Shown: positions 23,911 through 55,548 of the stretch, one piece after another
Layout of the letters: each line of letters begins with the position of its first letter
Numbering within the stretch: the first letter of the stretch is position 1
NCBI RefSeq assembly: GCF_947166265.1
Contig: NZ_CAMVDO010000011.1
Span: 1 to 64,000 of the forward strand
Length of the DNA stretch: 64,000 bases
Direction: 5' to 3'
Source of the DNA: an uncultured Fibrobacter sp.
Lineage (GTDB): Bacteria > Fibrobacterota > Fibrobacteria > Fibrobacterales > Fibrobacteraceae
Notes under the pieces: generated by a model
Databases searched by the model: none
Seen by the model: only the letters and a program-made list of their open reading frames with translations
What the model was told of the DNA's origin: nothing
Program-made: the position numbers and the translations under genes

Positions 23911-24731
23911 TGACAAAGTTTCGCCCCTGCATAGACCTGCACGACGGACGTGTAAAGCAGATTGTAGGTAGCTCGCTTTCCGACAGCGGCACGGGCCTCA
24001 AGACGAATTTTGAAACGGACCGCTCCCCCGCCTGGTTTGCGGAACTCTACAAGAAAGACGGAATCAAGGGTGGCCACGTGATTATGCTCGGCAAGGGCAA
24101 CACCGAAGCCGCTAAGACTGCGCTCGCCGCCTACCCCGGCGGACTCCAGGTGGGCGGCGGCATCACTGCCGAGAACGCGAAAGAATATCTGGATGCCGGT
24201 GCATCTCATGTAATCGTGACGAGCTGGATTTTTCCCGAAGGCAAGCTCGACCGTGAGCGCCTGGAATTGCTTTCCAAGACGGTCGGCAAGGAGCATCTGG
24301 TGCTTGACTTGAGCTGCAAGCGCGTGAGTTCTGCGAAGAAAAAGCAATTTGTCCCCGACGACGAAATCGACGATCCGGACGAAGCACGCCCCCGCTGGAA
24401 AATCGCCACGAACCGCTGGCAGACCTTGATTGACATCGAGGTGAACGCTGAAACGCTCGAAGACCTTTCGCGTTACTGCGACGAATTCCTGATTCACGCC
24501 GCCGATGTCGAAGGAAAGCAGCAGGGCATGGACGACGAGCTGATTATGTTCCTCGCCGAACACAGCCCCATCCCCTGCACCTACGCCGGTGGCGCCAAGT
24601 CACTTGAAGACCTCAAGCATTGCAAACAAATTTCTAATGGAACGATTGACCTCACCATCGGATCGGCCTTGGACCTGTTCGGTGGCAAAGGAGTAAAATA
24701 TGCCGACTGCGTCAAATTCAACAAAGCTTAA
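23910..24731 (+). CDS. hisA: Eukaryotic-type HisA, phosphoribosylformimino-AICAR-P isomerase
   Basis: This 273-residue TIM-barrel enzyme opens the ribose ring of ProFAR in histidine synthesis. It matches the eukaryotic form, as in yeast HIS6, rather than the usual bacterial HisA: FRPCIDLHDGRVKQIVG at the start, LQVGGGI near 82, VIVTSWIF near 104, LVLDLSCK near 131, NRWQTL near 174, EFLIHAADVEG near 199, YAGGAKSLEDL near 230 and DLTIGSALDLFGG near 250 follow the yeast protein block by block. An insert of about 20 residues (SSAKKKQFVPDDEIDDPDEA) precedes KIATNRWQ. The start overlaps the previous stop by one base. No other his gene is in the window. Confidence 0.93.
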   Translation: MTKFRPCIDLHDGRVKQIVGSSLSDSGTGLKTNFETDRSPAWFAELYKKDGIKGGHVIMLGKGNTEAAKTALAAYPGGLQVGGGITAENAKEYLDAGASHVIVTSWIFPEGKLDRERLELLSKTVGKEHLVLDLSCKRVSSAKKKQFVPDDEIDDPDEARPRWKIATNRWQTLIDIEVNAETLEDLSRYCDEFLIHAADVEGKQQGMDDELIMFLAEHSPIPCTYAGGAKSLEDLKHCKQISNGTIDLTIGSALDLFGGKGVKYADCVKFNKA

Positions 24732-26187
24732 GCCGACCGATTCACTGGATTCGCGTCCGGCCATCTTTGGACGCACCGTCACGAGCACCTTCAAGAAGAT
24801 GTTCGGTTTCAAGCATCAGCCCCCCGGAAACCTGCGTACCGGCATGATTCCGCCGGTTGTCTTTGGAACACTTTTCTGGAATCTGCCCAAACTTTTGAAG
24901 CTGCGCTGTTACCTAAAAAAGGAACGCCGCCAACGCCCCGCGAACGATGTACGCATTCTGTTCTATTCGGACAACCTCGACGAGACTAACGGAATCGCGA
25001 ACAACTTAAGAAACGTGATTCCCTACATGCGTGCCCATGGGATGCAGGCGTATCTTGCAGGAAACGCATTCAACACGCGCCCCTGCGGAGTCGTTGAAAA
25101 CAGCTATTGTCTTTTGCTCCCCCGCATGTTCAGCATGGAGCAGCTCGGATACGCCAACAGCGAACTCGCCATTCCACGCATCGGCCCGGTGCTTCGCCTG
25201 CTCAAGCGTTACCCTGTCGACCTGATTGAATTCGAGACGCCCAGTCCCGGAGCATGGCTCGTCTGTTTTTGTGCGAAAGTCGCTGGCATCAAGGTGTTCA
25301 GCCACTACCGCACCGACGTTCCGACTTACACCAAGACGCTTGTGAAGGCCAAGTGGATGTTCCATTTTGTGCTTTGGCTCATGAAGATTTTCTATCGCAT
25401 GACGCGCCCTGTGGTAAGCCCCTGCAAGGACTACGCGGATATTCTGACTTCACAGCTGAAAGTGCCCGTAAACCAGGTGCAGATTCTCCCCCGCGGACTT
25501 CCGCTTGAAAAATTCTCACAGGATTTACGCGGCAAAGGCACCTGGGAAAGGTTCAACGGAGCAGGAGTTCCTGCCGCGCAAACGGACTTTGCACAATCGA
25601 ACGCAACTCAGGTTGGAACTGCGCGCAAGGTACGCTTCTCTTTCATCGGACGCATTTCAAAGGAAAAGAACCTGGAATTCCTGAATGGCGTCTGGAAAAA
25701 GTTTGCCGCCAAGCACGATGACGTAGAACTCATGTATGTGGGTTACGGCTGGTACCTCGAAGAAATCAAGAAATTCTTCGAAGGTGATAGCAGCGTACAC
25801 TTTGCTGGCGAACAGGGCGGAGAAACGCTCGCCGGCCTTTACGCTGATTCCGACTTTTTCCTGTTCCCGAGCACTACGGACACCTTCGGGAACGTGGTGG
25901 TCGAAGCGATGTCCACAGGCACTCCCGCGATCGTAAGCGATTACGGCGGACCGCACGATATCGTAATGGACGAAGCCGCAGGTCGCATTTTGCCGATTGA
26001 CGAAGACGCCTGGCTGAACGCCCTGGAAGAATGTCGCAAGCTGTACCTTGAGGAACCCGCCACCTACGCCAAGATGCGAGAGGTCGCCCACGAGCGCAGC
26101 CTCAAGTACACCATGGAATCTTCGACCAAGGCGCAGTTCGAATTCTTCAGGAAGCTGAAAAGAGAAGCGTACGGAATTAGTGGTTAG
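24700..26187 (+). CDS. Glycosyltransferase family 4 (GT-B fold)
   Basis: This 495-residue protein is a retaining GT-B glycosyltransferase. The N-terminal lobe starts its fold at RILFYSDNLDETNGIANNLRNV near residue 86, typical of MgtA/PimB-like GT4 enzymes. The C-terminal lobe holds FSFIGRISKEKNLEFL near 314 and the sugar-nucleotide site DFFLFPSTTDTFGNVVVEAMSTGTP near 385-409, with the E-x7-E pair. An 85-residue N-terminal extension precedes it. The start at 24700 lies 32 bases inside hisA, but AAAGGAG 6 nt upstream strongly supports it. Likely acts on lipid or surface glycans at the membrane. The last codons run into the heptad array that follows. Confidence 0.9.
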   Translation: MPTASNSTKLKPTDSLDSRPAIFGRTVTSTFKKMFGFKHQPPGNLRTGMIPPVVFGTLFWNLPKLLKLRCYLKKERRQRPANDVRILFYSDNLDETNGIANNLRNVIPYMRAHGMQAYLAGNAFNTRPCGVVENSYCLLLPRMFSMEQLGYANSELAIPRIGPVLRLLKRYPVDLIEFETPSPGAWLVCFCAKVAGIKVFSHYRTDVPTYTKTLVKAKWMFHFVLWLMKIFYRMTRPVVSPCKDYADILTSQLKVPVNQVQILPRGLPLEKFSQDLRGKGTWERFNGAGVPAAQTDFAQSNATQVGTARKVRFSFIGRISKEKNLEFLNGVWKKFAAKHDDVELMYVGYGWYLEEIKKFFEGDSSVHFAGEQGGETLAGLYADSDFFLFPSTTDTFGNVVVEAMSTGTPAIVSDYGGPHDIVMDEAAGRILPIDEDAWLNALEECRKLYLEEPATYAKMREVAHERSLKYTMESSTKAQFEFFRKLKREAYGISG

Positions 26188-26441
26188 TGTTGAGTAGTCG
26201 GTTATGAGTGGTCAGAGTTTAGTAGTTAGTAAACAGTGGTTAGGATAATTCGGATTTCAGAGTTCAGAGTTATTAGTTTGTGGAACTTGGAGCTTAGAAC
26301 TTAGATATTTCGGAGAACGAAATTTGGAATTCGGAGTTGGTTTGTAAACCGAGATCAGTAATCAGAGTCAATTTGTCAATAGTGACTTAAGAATCACAAC
26401 TGAGAACAGACAACTAGCAACGGGCAACTCATAACCGCTCA
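26176..26441. repeat. Degenerate heptanucleotide array, about 38 units
   Basis: From the last codons of the glycosyltransferase to just before mutY the sequence can be cut into consecutive 7-bp units that change gradually while keeping their phase. Examples are GTTAGTG and ATGAGTG at 26183-26210, GAGTTCA and GAGTTAT at 26260-26273, TGGAGCT and TAGAACT at 26288-26301, and CAGACAA, CTAGCAA and CGGGCAA at 26407-26427. No gene, promoter or terminator is evident in it, except possibly at its edges. Similar arrays occur at 30354, 35545, 42401, 43011 and 55514. Confidence 0.85.
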
Positions 26442-26451
26442 TCCCCCCCCT

Positions 26452-27600
26452 ATGGACAACACCTCCTTAAAAAAACTGCGCGAATGGTTCAAGAAGAACG
26501 CAGCGGAACTCCCGTGGCGTTTAAAGGACCTTGACGCATGCCGCGATCCATATGCCGTATGGATTAGCGAGACCATGTTGCAGCAGACGCAAGTGGCGAC
26601 CGTACGCGAATATTTCATTCGATGGATGGAGCGGTTTCCCGATGTAGAGACACTTGCCGCCGCCGAAGAAAGCGAAGTATTCCGCTACTGGCAAGGGCTC
26701 GGGTATTACAGCCGCGCAAGGAATATACTGAAAACAGCGAGGATTGTAGTCAATTCTCTTGGAGATTGCCACGCCCCCACCCTGCGGCAGGCTCAGGGAC
26801 CTGGGGATCCGTCGAGGATGACGTTGAAAGGCAAAGCCTCATTGCCCGATAGTCGTAAAGAGCTGGAAGCGCTGCCCGGAATCGGGGCATACACCGCAGG
26901 AGCAATTTTAAGCCTCGCCTACCACCAGCGCGAAGCCATTTTAGACGGCAACTTGGTGCGCATTTTTTCAAGAGTTTATGCACTCGACTTCTTGCCGACC
27001 GATTCGAAGGAGTCCGCCGGGACATATTGGGAATACGCCCGCCAAATCGCAGATTCCCCCAAGGCGTACATGCATAACGAAGCGTTGATGGAGCTCGGTC
27101 GCACCGTTTGCAAAATCAAGAATCCTGACTGTGCGAGTTGTCCGCTTTGCAGAGACTGCATAGCCTTCGCCGAAAACCGCGTCAGCGAATTTCCACCGAG
27201 CAAAAAGCACATTCAAAAAGACTGGCACGGCACCGTCCTTGTCATCGAAAGTGCCGACCACAAAATTTTAGCGGTCCACGGCGGACAAAAGTTTTTCAAG
27301 AATCAGTTTACCTTGCCGCATTTCGAATCACCGCGCAATGCCACCACGGGACTCCCCGCGCAAGCAGAAACCTACGTTAACGCCGACCAGATAAACTCCG
27401 TTCAAAGCATCGGACAAATCAAGCACAACATCACGGTGCATAAAATTGAATGCGACGTTTTGCATATTCTGCTCAGAGGAAAGGCTCCCATTCGCAATAA
27501 ACAAGCAAAAACGGCGCATGAAATTCAGTGGATTGAGCGAGAAGAAGCTCAAGAATTTTTTGCGAACAGCTTCTGCCTAAAGGCGCTAGCGCTTCTTTAA
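26452..27600 (+). CDS. mutY: Adenine DNA glycosylase MutY with a repeat-derived insert
   Basis: This 382-residue enzyme removes adenine mispaired with 8-oxoguanine. The catalytic Glu40 (WISETMLQQTQV) and Asp165 (ILDGNLVRI) are present, as are the helix-hairpin-helix (LPGIGAYTAGAI, 141-152) and the [4Fe-4S] cysteines Cys220, Cys227, Cys230 and Cys236. A C-terminal NUDIX-like domain (about 255-382) should read 8-oxoG. Between SLGD and DSRKELEALPGIG lies an extra stretch of about 25 residues including LRQAQGPGDPSR, encoded by a dispersed palindromic repeat; the frame stays open and every catalytic residue is intact. A run of eight C lies just before the start, and no Shine-Dalgarno site is visible. 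Confidence 0.95.
   Translation: MDNTSLKKLREWFKKNAAELPWRLKDLDACRDPYAVWISETMLQQTQVATVREYFIRWMERFPDVETLAAAEESEVFRYWQGLGYYSRARNILKTARIVVNSLGDCHAPTLRQAQGPGDPSRMTLKGKASLPDSRKELEALPGIGAYTAGAILSLAYHQREAILDGNLVRIFSRVYALDFLPTDSKESAGTYWEYARQIADSPKAYMHNEALMELGRTVCKIKNPDCASCPLCRDCIAFAENRVSEFPPSKKHIQKDWHGTVLVIESADHKILAVHGGQKFFKNQFTLPHFESPRNATTGLPAQAETYVNADQINSVQSIGQIKHNITVHKIECDVLHILLRGKAPIRNKQAKTAHEIQWIEREEAQEFFANSFCLKALALL
26762..26823 (+). repeat. Palindromic repeat inserted in mutY
   Basis: The element begins GAGATTGCCACG and ends CGAGGATGACG, with CTGCGGCAGGCTCAGG inside. These are the same end blocks as the intergenic copies at 27604 and 52348. It encodes MutY residues about 104-124, in the variable loop before the helix-hairpin-helix. 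Confidence 0.8.
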
Positions 27601-30022: not shown

Positions 30023-31291
30023 CTATTTTCGGCTCAGGGCCTGGGCAAAAAATCCGTCAAAACGAGAATCTCCGGAACCAGGATAAACGGGTTCACCTCG
30101 TTTTTCAAATTCAGGATATTCCTTCACGAATCGATTGATGACCTTGGTCGTTTCCTCGGGATCGGGGCTGCAAGTTGCATACACGAGAATTCCACCCGGA
30201 GCAAGCTTTGCCGAAGCTGCCGTCAAAATATTGTACTGCAATTCAGCAAGTTCCTTGATGGATTCCGGCGTAATGCGATAGACCGATTCCGGACGGCGGG
30301 CGATAACACCCATATTGCTACAGGGAACATCAAGAAGAATTCGATCAAATTCAGACGAGAGACGAGAGACGAGAGACGAGAGAGGTTTGTCAGAAGACGA
30401 GAGGGCATCGAGGCATTCCACGCGGACATTCGTAAGGCCCAAGCGGTCTACAAGGTCACGCATTTTGAGCACACGGAATTCCGAGACATCACTTGCAAGA
30501 ATATCGAGCGAAGCATCCATCTCGGCCATGAGAGCAGCCTTTCCACCGGGTGCCGCACAGGCGTCCCACACCTTGAGGCCCGACTTCAAGTCCAGAAGCT
30601 TTATGACTTCGTAGGCAGAGGGATTTTGCAGGCTGAATTCGCCCTTCGCAAAGGACTCCGACTCTAAAATGGTCTTGAGTTTTGCACCGGCGCCCACCTG
30701 GATGTAACGGTCATACAGAATCGAGGCCCCCGTCAGTCCCAGTTTCTGGGCAACCACCGGAGCAGACGCCTTCTGCAAATTCACGCGAAGCCATTCCACG
30801 GGGCGTTCAAGCGTTGCCTTTGCCATCGCCTCGGCGCGTTCACCGCCGTAAATATCGAACCAGCGACGCACCAGCCATTCCGGCACGGAATTTTCTATAG
30901 AGACGCGGCGAACCCGCTGCGGAGGAAGCTGCGGGAGGCCGGACCTCCGCGCGGCATGCAGCACGGCATTCACAAGCCGCGCGGAGCCTTCTCCAAGGCT
31001 CGCCGCCTTAATCAGCTCGACCGTCGTCGCGACGGCGGCATGGTCCGGCACCTCGGTGAAGAACATCTGGAAAAGTCCAAGCTCCAGTACCGTGCAGACT
31101 TCAAGCGAAGGAGCCTTTTTCACCAGCGACTTCACAAAATACTGCAGGTACAAGTGTCTGCGGCACACCCCCAGCGCGAGTTCCATCGCAAATGGCGAGA
31201 GTCCGCTTTCCTTAATGAAGTTTCCGTCCTTTTGCCAAAGCAAAAGAACACGGAAGGCCTCCATGCGTTCTTTCAAGGATTCATCTAGCAA
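30023..31291 (-). CDS. rsmB: 16S rRNA m5C967 methyltransferase RsmB
   Basis: This protein of about 422 residues has an N-terminal NusB-like RNA-binding domain (about 1-130) and a C-terminal SAM-dependent Nol1/Nop2/Sun methyltransferase domain. The SAM site is VWDACAAPGGKAALMAEM. The two catalytic cysteines are in LLDVPCSNMG and YATCSPDPEE, and the ending DGFFAQAL is typical. The start is probably the TTG at 31291, since AAGGA lies 8 nt before it but only 2 nt before the TTG at 31297. The start lies within the end of fmt. Four perfect 7-bp repeats sit in the coding region (see 30354-30381), encoding SSLVSRLSSEF in a loop before the catalytic block. Confidence 0.93.
   Translation of the reverse strand: MLDESLKERMEAFRVLLLWQKDGNFIKESGLSPFAMELALGVCRRHLYLQYFVKSLVKKAPSLEVCTVLELGLFQMFFTEVPDHAAVATTVELIKAASLGEGSARLVNAVLHAARRSGLPQLPPQRVRRVSIENSVPEWLVRRWFDIYGGERAEAMAKATLERPVEWLRVNLQKASAPVVAQKLGLTGASILYDRYIQVGAGAKLKTILESESFAKGEFSLQNPSAYEVIKLLDLKSGLKVWDACAAPGGKAALMAEMDASLDILASDVSEFRVLKMRDLVDRLGLTNVRVECLDALSSSDKPLSSLVSRLSSEFDRILLDVPCSNMGVIARRPESVYRITPESIKELAELQYNILTAASAKLAPGGILVYATCSPDPEETTKVINRFVKEYPEFEKRGEPVYPGSGDSRFDGFFAQALSRK
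30354..30381 (-). repeat. Heptanucleotide microsatellite in rsmB (four GACGAGA)
   Basis: GACGAGA is repeated four times without error, and a further degenerate copy lies at 30397-30403. Seven is not a multiple of three, so gain or loss of one unit would shift the rsmB frame. Confidence 0.95.
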
Positions 31292-32211
31292 AAGCAAAGT
31301 CCTTCGCGTTTCTGGATTCCACGCATAAAGTCGGCGACAGGCATCGGCTTCTTGCCTTCGGCCTGAATTTCGATCACTTCGAGTACGCCCTCGCCTGTAC
31401 CCACGTAAAAGCGATTATCCTTAAATTCAACCGCACCCGGAGAAAGTTTCGGTCCGTTTTCGGGCGTGTCCGTCTTGCGCAAGTAAACCATACGGCCACC
31501 GAGCTTTCCATAGCCACCCGGCCACGGATTGAAGGCACGAATGCGGTCATGAATTACCTTCGCCGGCAGCTTGAAATCAATCAGGCCTTCTTCCTTTTTC
31601 AGCTTCGGAGCGCCACTAGCCTGCGCATGATCCTGCGACAAGTCCTTTTCACAGCCGTTCTGCAACTGGTGAATGGCATCGTCCAGCGCTTCGCAGCCAG
31701 GAGCCACCATCTTTTCCAGGAGGCTAGCCGTCGTATCCTGATGGTCGATCACCACCGTCTTCTGCGCAAGAATCGGACCGTGGTCCATCTTTTCGTCTAG
31801 GCGGAACACCGTCACGCCGGTTTCCTTAAGTCCATCGGCAATGGCGCGCTGCACCGGAGCGGCTCCGCGGTACTTCGGCAACAGACTCCCGTGAACGTTT
31901 ACGGCACCGAACTTAGCTACAGCAAGAATATTCTTCGGGAGAATCGAATAGGCGACCACCACAAAGAGGTCCGCATCGAAAGCACGCAGGGCGCTCTCGA
32001 ATTCGGGCGCCTTCAAATCAGTCGGTTGCAACACAGGGAGCCCGTATTCGAGAGCCAGTTGTTTCACTGGCGGGGGCGTAAGCACGCGCCCGCGCCCTGC
32101 GGGCCTATCCGGCTGAGTCACCACGGCGACCACGTCCGCAAAATCAGATTCCTTGAGATGCTTCAAAAAACAAGCCGCAAATTCCGGCGTACCCATAAAT
32201 ACAATTTTCAT
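31285..32211 (-). CDS. fmt: Methionyl-tRNA formyltransferase
   Basis: This protein of about 308 residues formylates initiator Met-tRNA with 10-formyl-THF. The N-terminal KIVFMGTPEFA block, the catalytic NVHGSLLPKYRGAAP near residue 107 and the C-terminal IRAFNPWPGG block are as expected. I chose the ATG at 32211, where the family usually starts, over an upstream ATG at 32244. There is no Shine-Dalgarno site, but TAAATT lies 7 nt before it. The 3' end overlaps the rsmB start by a few bases, the common fmt-rsmB pairing. Confidence 0.95.
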   Translation of the reverse strand: MKIVFMGTPEFAACFLKHLKESDFADVVAVVTQPDRPAGRGRVLTPPPVKQLALEYGLPVLQPTDLKAPEFESALRAFDADLFVVVAYSILPKNILAVAKFGAVNVHGSLLPKYRGAAPVQRAIADGLKETGVTVFRLDEKMDHGPILAQKTVVIDHQDTTASLLEKMVAPGCEALDDAIHQLQNGCEKDLSQDHAQASGAPKLKKEEGLIDFKLPAKVIHDRIRAFNPWPGGYGKLGGRMVYLRKTDTPENGPKLSPGAVEFKDNRFYVGTGEGVLEVIEIQAEGKKPMPVADFMRGIQKREGLCFC

Positions 32212-35533: not shown

Positions 35534-35544
35534 TGCGGGAAAAT

Positions 35545-35593
35545 ATAGTAATTAGTAGACAGTGGTTAGGTTACAGGTGTCAGGAGGCAGATT
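35545..35593. repeat. Degenerate heptanucleotide array, 7 units
   Basis: Seven successive 7-bp units all carry AG at positions 3-4: ATAGTAA, TTAGTAG, ACAGTGG, TTAGGTT, ACAGGTG, TCAGGAG and GCAGATT. The first unit overlaps the -10 box of the minus-strand gene at 35533, and the last abuts the promoter of the plus-strand gene at 35614. Confidence 0.75.
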
Positions 35594-38533: not shown

Positions 38534-38787
38534 AAGGCGAGCGAAGCAGCAATGCTTGCATTGCCATTTCCGAGCCGTAGAATTGGCTTTATTTACACGC
38601 CATCAGCCGAATTAAATAAAGACCGGTTCCCAAGGCGAGAGATGCGTCGATGCTTGCATCGACATATCCGAGCCGCTGAATTGGCTTTATTTACACGCCA
38701 TCAGCCGAATTAAATAAAGACCGGTTCCCAAGGCGAGAGATGCGTCGATGCTTGCATCGACATATCCGAGCCGCTGAACCGGCTTTT
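38534..38787. repeat. Tandem 98-bp repeat, 2.6 copies, with internal hairpins
   Basis: Copies start at 38534, 38632 and 38730 (each at AAGGCGAG); the third is cut at 38787. Copies two and three are identical over 50 bases. Each copy has a short hairpin with loop TT: GCAATGCTTGCATTGC in copy one, GTCGATGCTTGCATCGAC in the others. Both arms of the stem differ together, so pairing is kept. A second stem (CTTTATTT with AAATAAAG) encloses the CACGCCATCAGCC block. Confidence 0.93.
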
Positions 38788-40446: not shown

Positions 40447-42357
40447 ATGAAAACGGCGAAAATACATGTTTTATCCGATGAAATCATCAATAAAATTGCC
40501 GCAGGCGAGGTTATTGAGCGCCCAGCATCGGCAGTAAAGGAACTTATTGAAAACGCAATCGATGCCGGAGCCACCCGAATTCAGGTGACAATCGAAGAAG
40601 GTGGCAAGAAAAAAATCCAGGTGACCGACAACGGAAAGGGCATGAATTCCGCCGACCTGGACCTGTGTTATTTACGCCACACGACCTCTAAACTTTTTAG
40701 CGCCGACGACCTTTTTCACTTACAGACGAACGGTTTTAGAGGCGAAGCCGTTGCCTCCATCGCCGCGGTATCCAAATTAACGATTACAAGTGCAACAGAC
40801 GAAGGCGACAGTGGCCGACTCGTTTTGGAAGGCGGAAACGTTATTCGAAAAGAAGACGTTCAGGCAAGCCGCGGTACCACATTCTTAGTCGAAGACCTAT
40901 TCTACAACACCCCCGTACGCCGCACATTCCTAAGCAGCGAAACTGCCGAAAGCACGCGCATTTTTGACGTTGTCCTAAAAACCGCTATTGCACATCCTGA
41001 AATTCGCTTTGACTATAAAGTCGGCGACAAGTCCGTTTTCACGGGAGTTCCCGGAGAACTCCGCAACCGCATCGCCGAGGCAATCGGTTCAAAAATCGCA
41101 AAGGTACTCCTTCCCGTCGACTACACCGAAGCGGGCGTTCATATCTGGGGGTACATCTCCCCAACCACCGAAACGAACGGCAAGCGGAACCACCAATTTT
41201 TATTTATCCGCAACCGCCCTATCGAAAGCAAGATGATCAGCAAAGCGGTGCAGCAGGCTTACGAACCTTACGGGGCACAGTGCAAACCGGTATCTGTCCT
41301 ATTCATGGACATGCCGGATATGGAATTCGACGTAAACGTACACCCCGCCAAGAGGGAAGTCCGTTTCGCCAATCAGAACCTAGTCTTCTTGGTTGTCGCC
41401 CACGCCATTCGCGATACGTTTACAAAGAATATGGAGTCGAATTCACCGTTCATCGACTTAAGCGATGAAATCGCGGGCATTTCGCAAACGAAACCGACCG
41501 AAGTACAAGACAATCCCAAAGTTCCCTACGGCTTCGAAGAACCGATTTACAAGCCATCATCGAATTTTGCCCCAAGCCCCTCTGATTTTGCTACAAAGGA
41601 ATCCTCGGGCGACATTCCTGAAATGTCCAACCGCCAGGCAACGCCTTTTAACTACGAAAGACATCGCGAGACCCACCCCGCCGAAGACCTTGCACAGGAC
41701 ATGTTCAGCCAGCCCGAAGCAGGCAAAGTAATTTCGCTCGAAGGCCATGTAAACGAAACGCCCGCCCCCACACCACAGTGGGTTCCGCCGACTTTTTTTC
41801 AGATTGCAAACACCTATATCGCAGGTGAAGATTCCAACGGGCTCTTAGTCATCGACCAACATGCGGCACACTCGCGAGTCCTTTATGAACAAGCTCTAGA
41901 GACTCTAAAAAAAGGTTCAGCCCTCGACAGTCAGGAACTTTTGTTCCCCGAACTTCTGGACCTTTCCAAAATAGAAGTCGAAGCACTCCGAAGCGTCGAG
42001 GATCAGTTCAAGCATCTGGGATTCTACATCGAACATTTCGGCGGCGAAACCTATCAGATACGCGCGATTCCAAGCGCACTCCCGCTTTCGCGCGCCATCA
42101 AGGCGGTCAAGGACTTTCTGGATAGCATCGGCGACGAAGGTAAAGGCGAAGGCGACATGGTAAAGGTGCAAGACACCATCGCGAAAGCCTGGGCAAATAC
42201 GAACGCCTACCAGGCCGGCGACAAGCTAAAGCCCGAAGAAATGGCCGCACTCGTAAGTCAACTGATGCTCACCGAAGAGCCCCTCAAATCCCCCTACGGT
42301 CACCCGACGCTACTGCGCTTTACACTCGACGAATTGGCCAAGAAATTCAAGCGCTAG
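40447..42357 (+). CDS. mutL: DNA mismatch repair protein MutL with degenerate endonuclease motifs
   Basis: This 636-residue protein couples mismatch recognition by MutS to repair. The GHKL ATPase part (1-330) is intact: ELIENAIDAGA, DNGKGM, TSKL and GFRGEAVASI. A linker of about 120 residues, rich in Pro and Ser, follows. The dimerisation domain (about 435-636) has DQHAAHSRVLYE, where the metal-binding motif usually reads DQHAxxE; the first Glu is Ser. The later blocks are AWANTNAYQAGDKL and SPYGHPT, where nicking MutL proteins have a Cys-containing ACH-type block and CPHGRP. Nicking activity is therefore doubtful. The 3' end overlaps lpxB by 48 bases, tail to tail. Confidence 0.95.
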   Translation: MKTAKIHVLSDEIINKIAAGEVIERPASAVKELIENAIDAGATRIQVTIEEGGKKKIQVTDNGKGMNSADLDLCYLRHTTSKLFSADDLFHLQTNGFRGEAVASIAAVSKLTITSATDEGDSGRLVLEGGNVIRKEDVQASRGTTFLVEDLFYNTPVRRTFLSSETAESTRIFDVVLKTAIAHPEIRFDYKVGDKSVFTGVPGELRNRIAEAIGSKIAKVLLPVDYTEAGVHIWGYISPTTETNGKRNHQFLFIRNRPIESKMISKAVQQAYEPYGAQCKPVSVLFMDMPDMEFDVNVHPAKREVRFANQNLVFLVVAHAIRDTFTKNMESNSPFIDLSDEIAGISQTKPTEVQDNPKVPYGFEEPIYKPSSNFAPSPSDFATKESSGDIPEMSNRQATPFNYERHRETHPAEDLAQDMFSQPEAGKVISLEGHVNETPAPTPQWVPPTFFQIANTYIAGEDSNGLLVIDQHAAHSRVLYEQALETLKKGSALDSQELLFPELLDLSKIEVEALRSVEDQFKHLGFYIEHFGGETYQIRAIPSALPLSRAIKAVKDFLDSIGDEGKGEGDMVKVQDTIAKAWANTNAYQAGDKLKPEEMAALVSQLMLTEEPLKSPYGHPTLLRFTLDELAKKFKR

Positions 42358-43554
42358 CCCTTCGAGCGTTTTGCCCACCGAGAGTTTTGCGTGAAGATTC
42401 GAGGTTTCGGGTTTCAGGTTACAGGTTTCAGCCCCGTGCAAGTGAGCATTTTCCGTTCCATTCAAGCAATCATCAATTTTTTTTGCCAAGGCACATTGTT
42501 GGAAAGGGCCAAGAATATACTCAGGATACACCTGTTTTCCTAAGATGATATTGGGCAGGGCAAAATACTTTGTCCTAATAAAAATTCGCCCTAGACAATA
42601 AGTCAGCAAATCCGGCTTGGTGCAAACAACGAACGGAATGCCAGACAAGGCAAGTTCTAAAGTCGCCGTACCTGGACAGGCAAGAGCAAAGAAATAGCTG
42701 CCAAAGAACGCCCTTCGGGCTGATATTTCCGACGGCACCTCGACCACCTGCACATTCGCAAGATTCTTTAAACAATGTAAATTACAAAAATCAGTGACAA
42801 ATTCTTGAATAGGCGCCACAAGTTCACTGCGGGCACAGGCGATCGTGACCGACTCTGGAGGCTGATTCAGATTCGCGACGGTATTCAGGTAAACAGGCAA
42901 ATTACGCAACGCCTGCGACTTACGGCTCCCCGGCAATAACAGACAGCTTTGACTAGAGATTGCCGCGGTCGCAGAGATCCCTCGCAATGACGTATTTTCC
43001 TCGATGTACAATTCCGAAATCCGAATTCCGAATTCCGAATTAACGAACGGATGTTTTACGCGCACAACGTTGCAGAGAGCCTCTGCGTAAGCCCGCTCTT
43101 CAAAATCAAAGAATACCGCAAGTTTGACATAAGGGTTTTGGGCAAGAACTTTCGCACGCCCGCGTTTCCACGCCCATACCTGCGGAGGCGCCACATATAA
43201 GGCTGGCTTATGCAACTCCCCCGCCCGTTTAACCAATTTCATGTTGAAGCCGGGATAATCAATCGCAATTAGCCCCAAGCATTCCGGCGATTCAAGAGCC
43301 GATTTTAGAATTCTAAAGCTCTGACGCAGTTTCAAATATCTGGGCAACACATCGCCAAACCCCGAAACGGGCAAATTTTCAAAATCAACCAGGGGAATCA
43401 TTCCCGCATCTTGCATCCGGTGCCCGCCCGACCCCTGAACAAAAATATTTCGAAAGGCCGCATTTTCAGAAAGAAGCGCCCTTACCAAGGGTTCTCCGAT
43501 AACATCACCGGAATCTTCTCCAGCGCAAATCAGAATGTACGGCTTACACGCCAT
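42310..43554 (-). CDS. lpxB: Lipid-A-disaccharide synthase carrying repeat-derived segments
   Basis: This 414-residue enzyme joins UDP-diacyl-GlcN and lipid X in lipid A synthesis. The N-terminal ICAGEDSGDVIGEPLVRAL, the central YVAPPQVWAWKRGR, LLLPGSRKSQ and CPGTATLELAL blocks fit the family. Three segments derive from repeats: EFGIRISEL from a heptad array at 43011, SLRGISATAAIS from the palindromic repeat at 42956, and CNLKPETSNLHAK near the C terminus from the heptad array at 42401. All are in frame and in variable loops or the tail. AAAGGA lies 2 nt before the ATG, and the gene starts 6 bases after dnaE, so the two form an operon. Confidence 0.93.
   Translation of the reverse strand: MACKPYILICAGEDSGDVIGEPLVRALLSENAAFRNIFVQGSGGHRMQDAGMIPLVDFENLPVSGFGDVLPRYLKLRQSFRILKSALESPECLGLIAIDYPGFNMKLVKRAGELHKPALYVAPPQVWAWKRGRAKVLAQNPYVKLAVFFDFEERAYAEALCNVVRVKHPFVNSEFGIRISELYIEENTSLRGISATAAISSQSCLLLPGSRKSQALRNLPVYLNTVANLNQPPESVTIACARSELVAPIQEFVTDFCNLHCLKNLANVQVVEVPSEISARRAFFGSYFFALACPGTATLELALSGIPFVVCTKPDLLTYCLGRIFIRTKYFALPNIILGKQVYPEYILGPFQQCALAKKIDDCLNGTENAHLHGAETCNLKPETSNLHAKLSVGKTLEGLALEFLGQFVECKAQ
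42401..42435. repeat. Heptanucleotide array inside lpxB, 3' end
   Basis: Five 7-bp units (GAGGTTT, CGGGTTT, CAGGTTA, CAGGTTT, CAGCCCC) encode part of the LpxB tail on the minus strand. Confidence 0.8.
42956..42992 (-). repeat. Palindromic repeat inserted in lpxB
   Basis: GAGATTGCCGCGG at the left and CTCGCAATGACG at the right are the same ends as the copy at 27604. ATTGC and GCAAT pair. The reverse strand encodes LpxB residues in the loop before LLLPGSR. Confidence 0.8.
43011..43045. repeat. Heptanucleotide array inside lpxB
   Basis: ATTCCGA, AATCCGA, ATTCCGA, ATTCCGA and ATTAACG follow in phase. The minus strand encodes NSEFGIRISEL. Confidence 0.85.
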
Positions 43555-55502: not shown

Positions 55503-55510
55503 CGAGTTAA

Positions 55511-55516
55511 AATATA
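55511..55516 (-). promoter_or_regulatory. der -10 box, 8 nt from the start
   Basis: On the minus strand TATATT is followed by TTAACTCG and the ATG at 55502. The first heptad of the array at 55514 overlaps the box. Confidence 0.5.
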
Positions 55517-55548
55517 GTAAATAGTGGTTAGGGGTTGGTGGTTAGGGC
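55514..55548. repeat. Degenerate heptanucleotide array, 5 units
   Basis: ATAGTAA, ATAGTGG, TTAGGGG, TTGGTGG and TTAGGGC follow in phase, close in sequence to the array at 35545. Both arrays start at the -10 box of a minus-strand gene. Confidence 0.75.

Follow-up and report, generated by a model that had tools for sequence, protein, structure and literature searches.

Short tandem arrays of seven-base units in Fibrobacter genomes obey a polarity rule that depends on the gap in which they lie rather than on the genes around it: from either edge of a gap, and whatever the direction of the flanking genes, the AG- or G-rich strand runs 3' into the gap. The arrays keep a 7-base period and an AG anchor, their units are copied from neighbouring units, they contact gene edges and they are replaced over time, and the gap-edge polarity also holds in many other bacterial phyla. 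We tentatively regard them, at somewhat less than an even chance, as scars of a self-templated lengthening, in seven-base steps, of 3' ends that face a break or gap.

The window, a stretch of 64,000 nucleotides from an uncultured Fibrobacter sp., has its strongest lag-7 stretch at 26176-26441, immediately before mutY. Self-match in this stretch is 0.514 at lag 7 and 0.50 at lag 14, compared with 0.21 to 0.26 at the remaining lags from 2 to 13, and lies far above 1000 dinucleotide shuffles (mean 0.269, sd 0.027, maximum 0.359; z = 9.0). The 7-bp periodicity that an earlier, sequence-only reading had claimed upstream of mutY is therefore real (0.514 against ~0.25 elsewhere). Its description of the period as strict is correct in that the spacing is 7 throughout 26176-26441, but there is not one strict phase, because the AG anchor changes phase between three sub-arrays:

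26177-26237, plus strand (AG strand): left arm of TTAGTGG-type heptamers, starting within the final codons of the glycosyltransferase gene
26247-26340, plus strand (AG strand): middle sub-array of TTCAGAG, TTAGAAC and TTCGGAG types, its anchor phase shifted relative to the left arm
26371-26428, minus strand (AG strand): right arm of CAACTAG and CAACTGA types, with a weak strand call (G-C = -1)

The TAG stop codon of the upstream glycosyltransferase gene (ORF 24700-26187) is supplied by the left arm, and mutY (ATG at 26452) adjoins the end of the right arm. The gap before mutY, visible in plus-strand loci of G000, G001, G005, G006, G012, G014, G019 and others, is empty in G005 and contains a different array or spacer in G001, G006 and G019. 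The mutY genes of G001, G019 and G006 themselves have an apparent variable linker of palindromic repeat elements (L276:11647-11793, L278:7803-7874 and L277:10963-11029, respectively). The TTAGTGG unit recurs in Fibrobacter and in ruminant Ruminococcus and Selenomonadaceae genomes (L129, L149, L198).

All six loci for which the sequence-only reading had claimed such arrays hold, the other five also exceeding their own shuffles (z 3.4-5.3). Across the whole window seven lag-7 segments score 13 or more, as against 0, 0, 0, 0 and 1 in five shuffled windows, and 464 kb of the same genome contain 22 lag-7 segments (score of at least 11) compared with 1 to 5 at lags 4, 5, 8, 10, 11 and 13. Other Fibrobacter genomes have 3 to 18 lag-7 segments per 100 kb, and none were found in G031 and G040, two of the three more distant Fibrobacterota sampled. 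The lag-7 autocorrelation that had been proposed as a check thus finds an excess at 7 over neighbouring lags that is genus-wide and, given this excess and the presence of arrays in other Fibrobacter genomes, the periodicity is not refuted. The Fibrobacter sample comprises ~1.2 Mb of DNA taken in stretches, with genes called as longest ORFs rather than by a trained gene finder; its arrays are dispersed and mostly intergenic, with 12 of 82 lying within an ORF of at least 100 aa. Two further arrays of the window are intergenic:

35546-35590, plus strand: drifting array, ATAGTAA to TTAGTAG to CAGGTGT (lag-7 match 0.61, z 4.2)
55508-55547, plus strand: drifting array, ATAGTAA to ATAGTGG to TTAGGGG (lag-7 match 0.67, z 4.0)

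In both, the G strand is directed into the gap. The former begins 12 nt away from the start codon of a small ORF on the minus strand, as read from the sequence, and the latter 6 nt away from the start of an EngA/Der-like GTPase gene, also on the minus strand. Both drifting arrays open with AAAATATAGTAA (35540-35560 and 55508-55530), the complement of which, TTACTATATTTT, resembles a -10 box of the adjacent minus-strand gene; the start of an array may be the point at which promoter constraint stops. The window also contains a 98-bp tandem repeat (38534-38786; 2.6 copies, 92% alike) that is unrelated to the heptamers.

An unsupervised seven-column fit to the G-rich strand of 40 arrays recovers an AG anchor (NNAGNNR) with A at 0.76 and G at 0.78 in adjacent columns, and mismatches between neighbouring units are uneven over the phases (Fisher chi-square 203.7, 80 df). 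The units do drift, as had been described, but the accompanying contrast with one conserved motif holds only in part, as the anchor is retained. Unit identity in Fibrobacter falls from 0.68 at lag 7 through 0.60, 0.55, 0.50 and 0.46 to 0.43 at lag 42, and also declines in other phyla (0.75 to 0.56 among the matches listed). Since identity decays with unit distance, whereas random errors on a fixed template would keep it flat, units are copied from their neighbours and fixed-template synthesis was rejected; the decay supports the original suggestion of repeated slippage or templated copying. G content in the outer and inner thirds of an array is 0.33 and 0.40 in Fibrobacter, and 0.35 and 0.36 elsewhere (among the matches listed), and because this rise is hardly present outside Fibrobacter we claim no directional drift.

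Polarity, inverted pairs and intragenic sites lie beyond the account of the sequence-only reading. We defined an edge array as one lying no more than 25 nt from a gene edge, and as inward if its AG/G-rich strand runs 3' into the gap. Inward arrays account for 50 of the 58 Fibrobacter edge arrays and outward arrays for eight (p = 1.6e-8), with like ratios at gene starts (23:4) and gene stops (27:4). The median distance to the gene edge is 4-5 nt for inward and 47-60 nt for outward arrays, and ordinary gaps are without such skew (106 G-rich and 176 C-rich left edges). Stop codons adjacent to arrays are TAG in 14 of 27 cases, compared with 262 of 925 overall; seeding by stop codons was rejected as the cause of the polarity because an array can itself supply the TAG and gene starts show equal polarity.

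The same orientation was found outside the genus by scanning one genome per species (84,980 species) for the pattern (TAGNNNN)x6, the loci being a sample of which at least 114 were analysed, from diverse bacteria and at least one archaeal genome. Among the matches listed, 123 edge arrays are inward and 34 outward (p = 5e-13), divided as 39:13 at gene starts and 84:21 at gene stops. C-strand partners within 300 bp of a plus-strand TAG array lie downstream in 35 cases and upstream in two (114 loci among the matches listed). The two arms frequently have different units, for example TAGTGAA and TTTCCTC in L178, and since units often differ in this way the arms are not copies of one palindrome. Because the polarity rule is tied to the gap and not to genes, the underlying process would act on both sides of the gap.

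Half of the window arrays (three of six) are intragenic and in frame:

30353-30385, plus strand (non-coding strand of rsmB): AGACGAG, 4.4 copies (lag-7 match 0.96, z 3.4)
42395-42431, plus strand: GGTTTCA-type array, in frame near the C-terminal end of lpxB (lag-7 match 0.77, z 5.3)
43010-43041, minus strand: AATTCCG-type array (CGGAATT on the G strand), in frame in lpxB (lag-7 match 0.92, z 4.3)

The first of these, in an rsmB-like rRNA methyltransferase gene (30023-31297, minus strand), encodes the peptide SSLVSRLSS, which lies in a variable loop preceding FDRILLDVPCS. Across species the RsmB loop contains AGACGAG arrays (G000, G001, G004), short or degenerate remnants (G010, G011) or other repeat elements (G006, G007, G008), and is nearly empty in G014. 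On the G strand, CTTAGACGA is followed directly by ATGCTGCGG in G014, and the two are separated in G001 by 30 bases of AGACGAG-type units, a difference that could reflect contraction instead of growth. The lpxB arrays (gene at 42310-43554, minus strand) encode ETCNLKPETSNL at 42395-42431 and NSEFGIRISEL at 43010-43041. A palindromic element, GTCATTGCGAG..CGGCAATCTC, lies in frame in lpxB at 42940-43010, where it adjoins the heptamer array and encodes TSLRGISATAAISS. A tilS-like gene, named from a conserved motif rather than by family search, has two in-frame composite insertions in G008 (L091:15640-16040) and G018 (L273), in the order G-strand heptamers, GGAGATCCCCG..CGGGGATGACA palindrome and C-strand heptamers; between the two genomes the left-arm type is retained and the right-arm unit swapped. 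In-frame palindromic insertions in genes are familiar from Rickettsia (RPE), and the Fibrobacter arrays resemble these in their insertion into tolerant protein loops, but differ in that the insert is a heptamer array, sometimes beside a palindrome.

Turnover of the arrays between species is fast. Orthologous loci, compared between species only, differ in array length and in units: at one site the close species G008, G018 and G013 share the bases AATTTAGTAAATAGT at the outer end of the left arm and differ in all that lies farther in, including the spacer; at another (site a) every unit is AGAGACT in one species and AGAGACG in the second; a third site has had its array swapped for one of a different type; and at site e there are point differences alone. 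The inter-arm spacer in G008, G013 and G018 is a dispersed repeat of ~70-110 bp, which suggests mobility. Its core CTAGGGAGAAAT.. (L095:16044-16156, L232-L251) recurs dozens of times in G013 and G018 at 80-95% identity, with drifting CTAG-type heptamer arms on its flanks and other palindromic elements nested in the same places. In a small test, three of seven spacers recurred in the sampled DNA, and inspection by eye of the orthologous gaps compared, few of them clean empty sites, showed no target-site duplication.

According to our preferred reading, an inward 3' end would slip back by one seven-base unit and copy its newest unit again, often with errors. The left and right ends would be lengthened separately, each on its own 3'-ending strand, and then joined, leaving AG-anchored units directed inward from either edge. 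The first unit would be taken from host sequence at a functional boundary, such as a stop codon, a promoter edge or a tolerant protein loop, and the AG anchor would provide the short match that lets the end re-pair one unit back. Period, decay, anchor, inward polarity, unlike arms, gene-edge contact and replacement from inside would all follow from this single scheme. We infer a break or gap as the trigger, growth at the 3' end and the action of a housekeeping polymerase, and are not aware of any polymerase for which terminal extension in steps of 7 bases is documented. As Ku is absent from all 25 Fibrobacter genomes searched (with a positive B. subtilis control), Ku was rejected as the joining enzyme and joining must be Ku-independent here. 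An RVT_1 (PF00078) reverse transcriptase was likewise rejected as the enzyme, since the family is sparse in Fibrobacter (5 of 25 genomes) and had no match in the present genome (G000), making it dispensable. Against extension of ends stand the outward arrays (8 of 58 in Fibrobacter and 34 of 157 elsewhere, among the matches listed), the mobility suggested by the dispersed spacer core of G008, G013 and G018, and the fact that neighbour copying would also result from ordinary internal slippage.

Such slippage during replication, on pre-existing seeds whose positions set the polarity and with a polymerase footprint that favours units of seven bases, is a possible though rather unlikely account. 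It needs no new enzyme, covers period, copying and decay, and fits the concerted change from AGAGACT to AGAGACG in all units at site a, but inward polarity at both kinds of gene edge, starts as well as stops, is not among its predictions, so that slippage alone leaves the polarity unexplained. Seeds at stop codons or ribosome sites would put opposite strands at gene starts. By comparison, if the process acts on DNA ends, arrays should be inward at all gap edges, a prediction that neither plain slippage nor gene regulation makes. Inward polarity would also be produced by MITE-like mobile elements with heptamer arrays as terminal inverted arms, and the many similar copies of the core with CTAG-type arms in G008, G013 and G018, together with the palindromic elements between arms, also favour this reading. 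However, left and right arms are often unlike and contact gene edges on both sides, only the minority of spacers mentioned above is repeated, no target-site duplication was seen in the compared sites, and no transposase could be linked to the arrays. Mobile elements, which we consider unlikely, account for the polarity but not for unlike arms and unique spacers; extension of ends and mobility may combine, as one species group has a dispersed core between its arms.

Retention of the AG anchor amid drift at other positions would be expected of selected elements, whether Chi-like protein sites acting from breaks outward, RNA-binding protein sites or RNA hairpins at gene ends. Chi sites have the same inward orientation around a break, and folding of the mutY array is somewhat more stable than that of its shuffles (z -2.55). 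Selection is nonetheless improbable given that arrays are quickly replaced by other units between close species and also occur within coding genes. Hairpins alone give no preference for G-first over C-first arrangements, no intrinsic terminator (GC stem then T run) was found in 25900-26700 and no Rfam family matched the array, and with so modest a fold score a hairpin or terminator was rejected as the main reading. Addition to ends from a 7-base RNA template, by a telomerase-like or DRT10-like reverse transcriptase, is very improbable, even though DRT10 produces tandem-repeat DNA (PMC12632851) and the inward 3' polarity resembles a telomere-telomere fusion: the gene family is missing here and in most Fibrobacter (PF00078 being the family searched), and drifting units with decaying similarity argue against a fixed RNA template. 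Least probable of all are G-quadruplex repeats kept for regulation, as in Xanthomonas and Nostoc (PMC4692102), with which period, location and polarity agree. Four GGG runs occur in only one of the 58 Fibrobacter edge arrays, arrays without quadruplex potential are equally polar (29:4 inward), and a quadruplex function was rejected because most arrays have no GGG.

Tandem heptanucleotides scattered between genes (STRR) occur in cyanobacteria including Calothrix and Nostoc, and share with the Fibrobacter arrays an excess of period 7 and a dispersed, mostly intergenic distribution; we know of no description of polarity or neighbour copying in them. The mention of cyanobacteria in the sequence-only reading is thus correct but too narrow, since Xanthomonas, Beggiatoaceae, Bacteroidetes and many other phyla have heptamers too. 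The Calothrix repeats are cited in a study of the heptameric repeats GGGAATC of Xanthomonas and GGGGA(C/T)T of Nostoc (PLoS One 2015, PMC4692102), which reports convergent pairs in Xanthomonas and G-rich units downstream of genes on the coding strand and upstream on the non-coding strand. This placement is found in Fibrobacter (50:8, starts and stops alike); however, that study describes one G-rich unit type per genome, reads it as quadruplexes and does not carry the rule over to units unable to form them, whereas a single Fibrobacter genome has numerous dissimilar units, most of them lacking GGG, that drift but keep an AG anchor. The direct repeat TAACTGA, described from Beggiatoaceae and from some Cyanobacteria and Bacteroidetes (MacGregor 2015, PMC4679880), likewise forms intergenic heptamer arrays, and its reverse complement, TCAGTTA, has the AG anchor, but Beggiatoa has a single invariant TAACTGA, with related heptamers rare in that genome, in contrast to units that vary between and within arrays in Fibrobacter. 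Mrazek's proposal of slippage with seven favoured via the polymerase footprint, as cited in both papers (PMC4692102, PMC4679880), is a repeat-count account that likewise favours seven; polarity and drift lie outside the account as given there.

No account of Fibrobacter heptamers was found in the literature searched, which mostly excluded subscription journals, and as far as it shows Fibrobacter is a new host of a known kind of repeat. Polarity across unlike units, the AG anchor and neighbour copying are, as far as we found, undescribed, and multi-unit drift, anchor, neighbour copying and cross-phylum edge polarity together constitute a testable general rule. The bacterial preference for seven-base repeats has been an open question since at least 2007. 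It is conceivable, if somewhat unlikely, that many phyla have an unrecognised end-healing process that, before joining the two 3' ends of a chromosomal break, extends each with self-templated, AG-anchored seven-base units; this would parallel telomere healing but need no RNA template, and would write much intergenic DNA and some protein loops. If 3' ends are extended as we propose, intergenic DNA and new protein segments, such as the RsmB, LpxB and TilS loops, would have a source not recognised before, and bacteria without Ku would have a new route of break repair.
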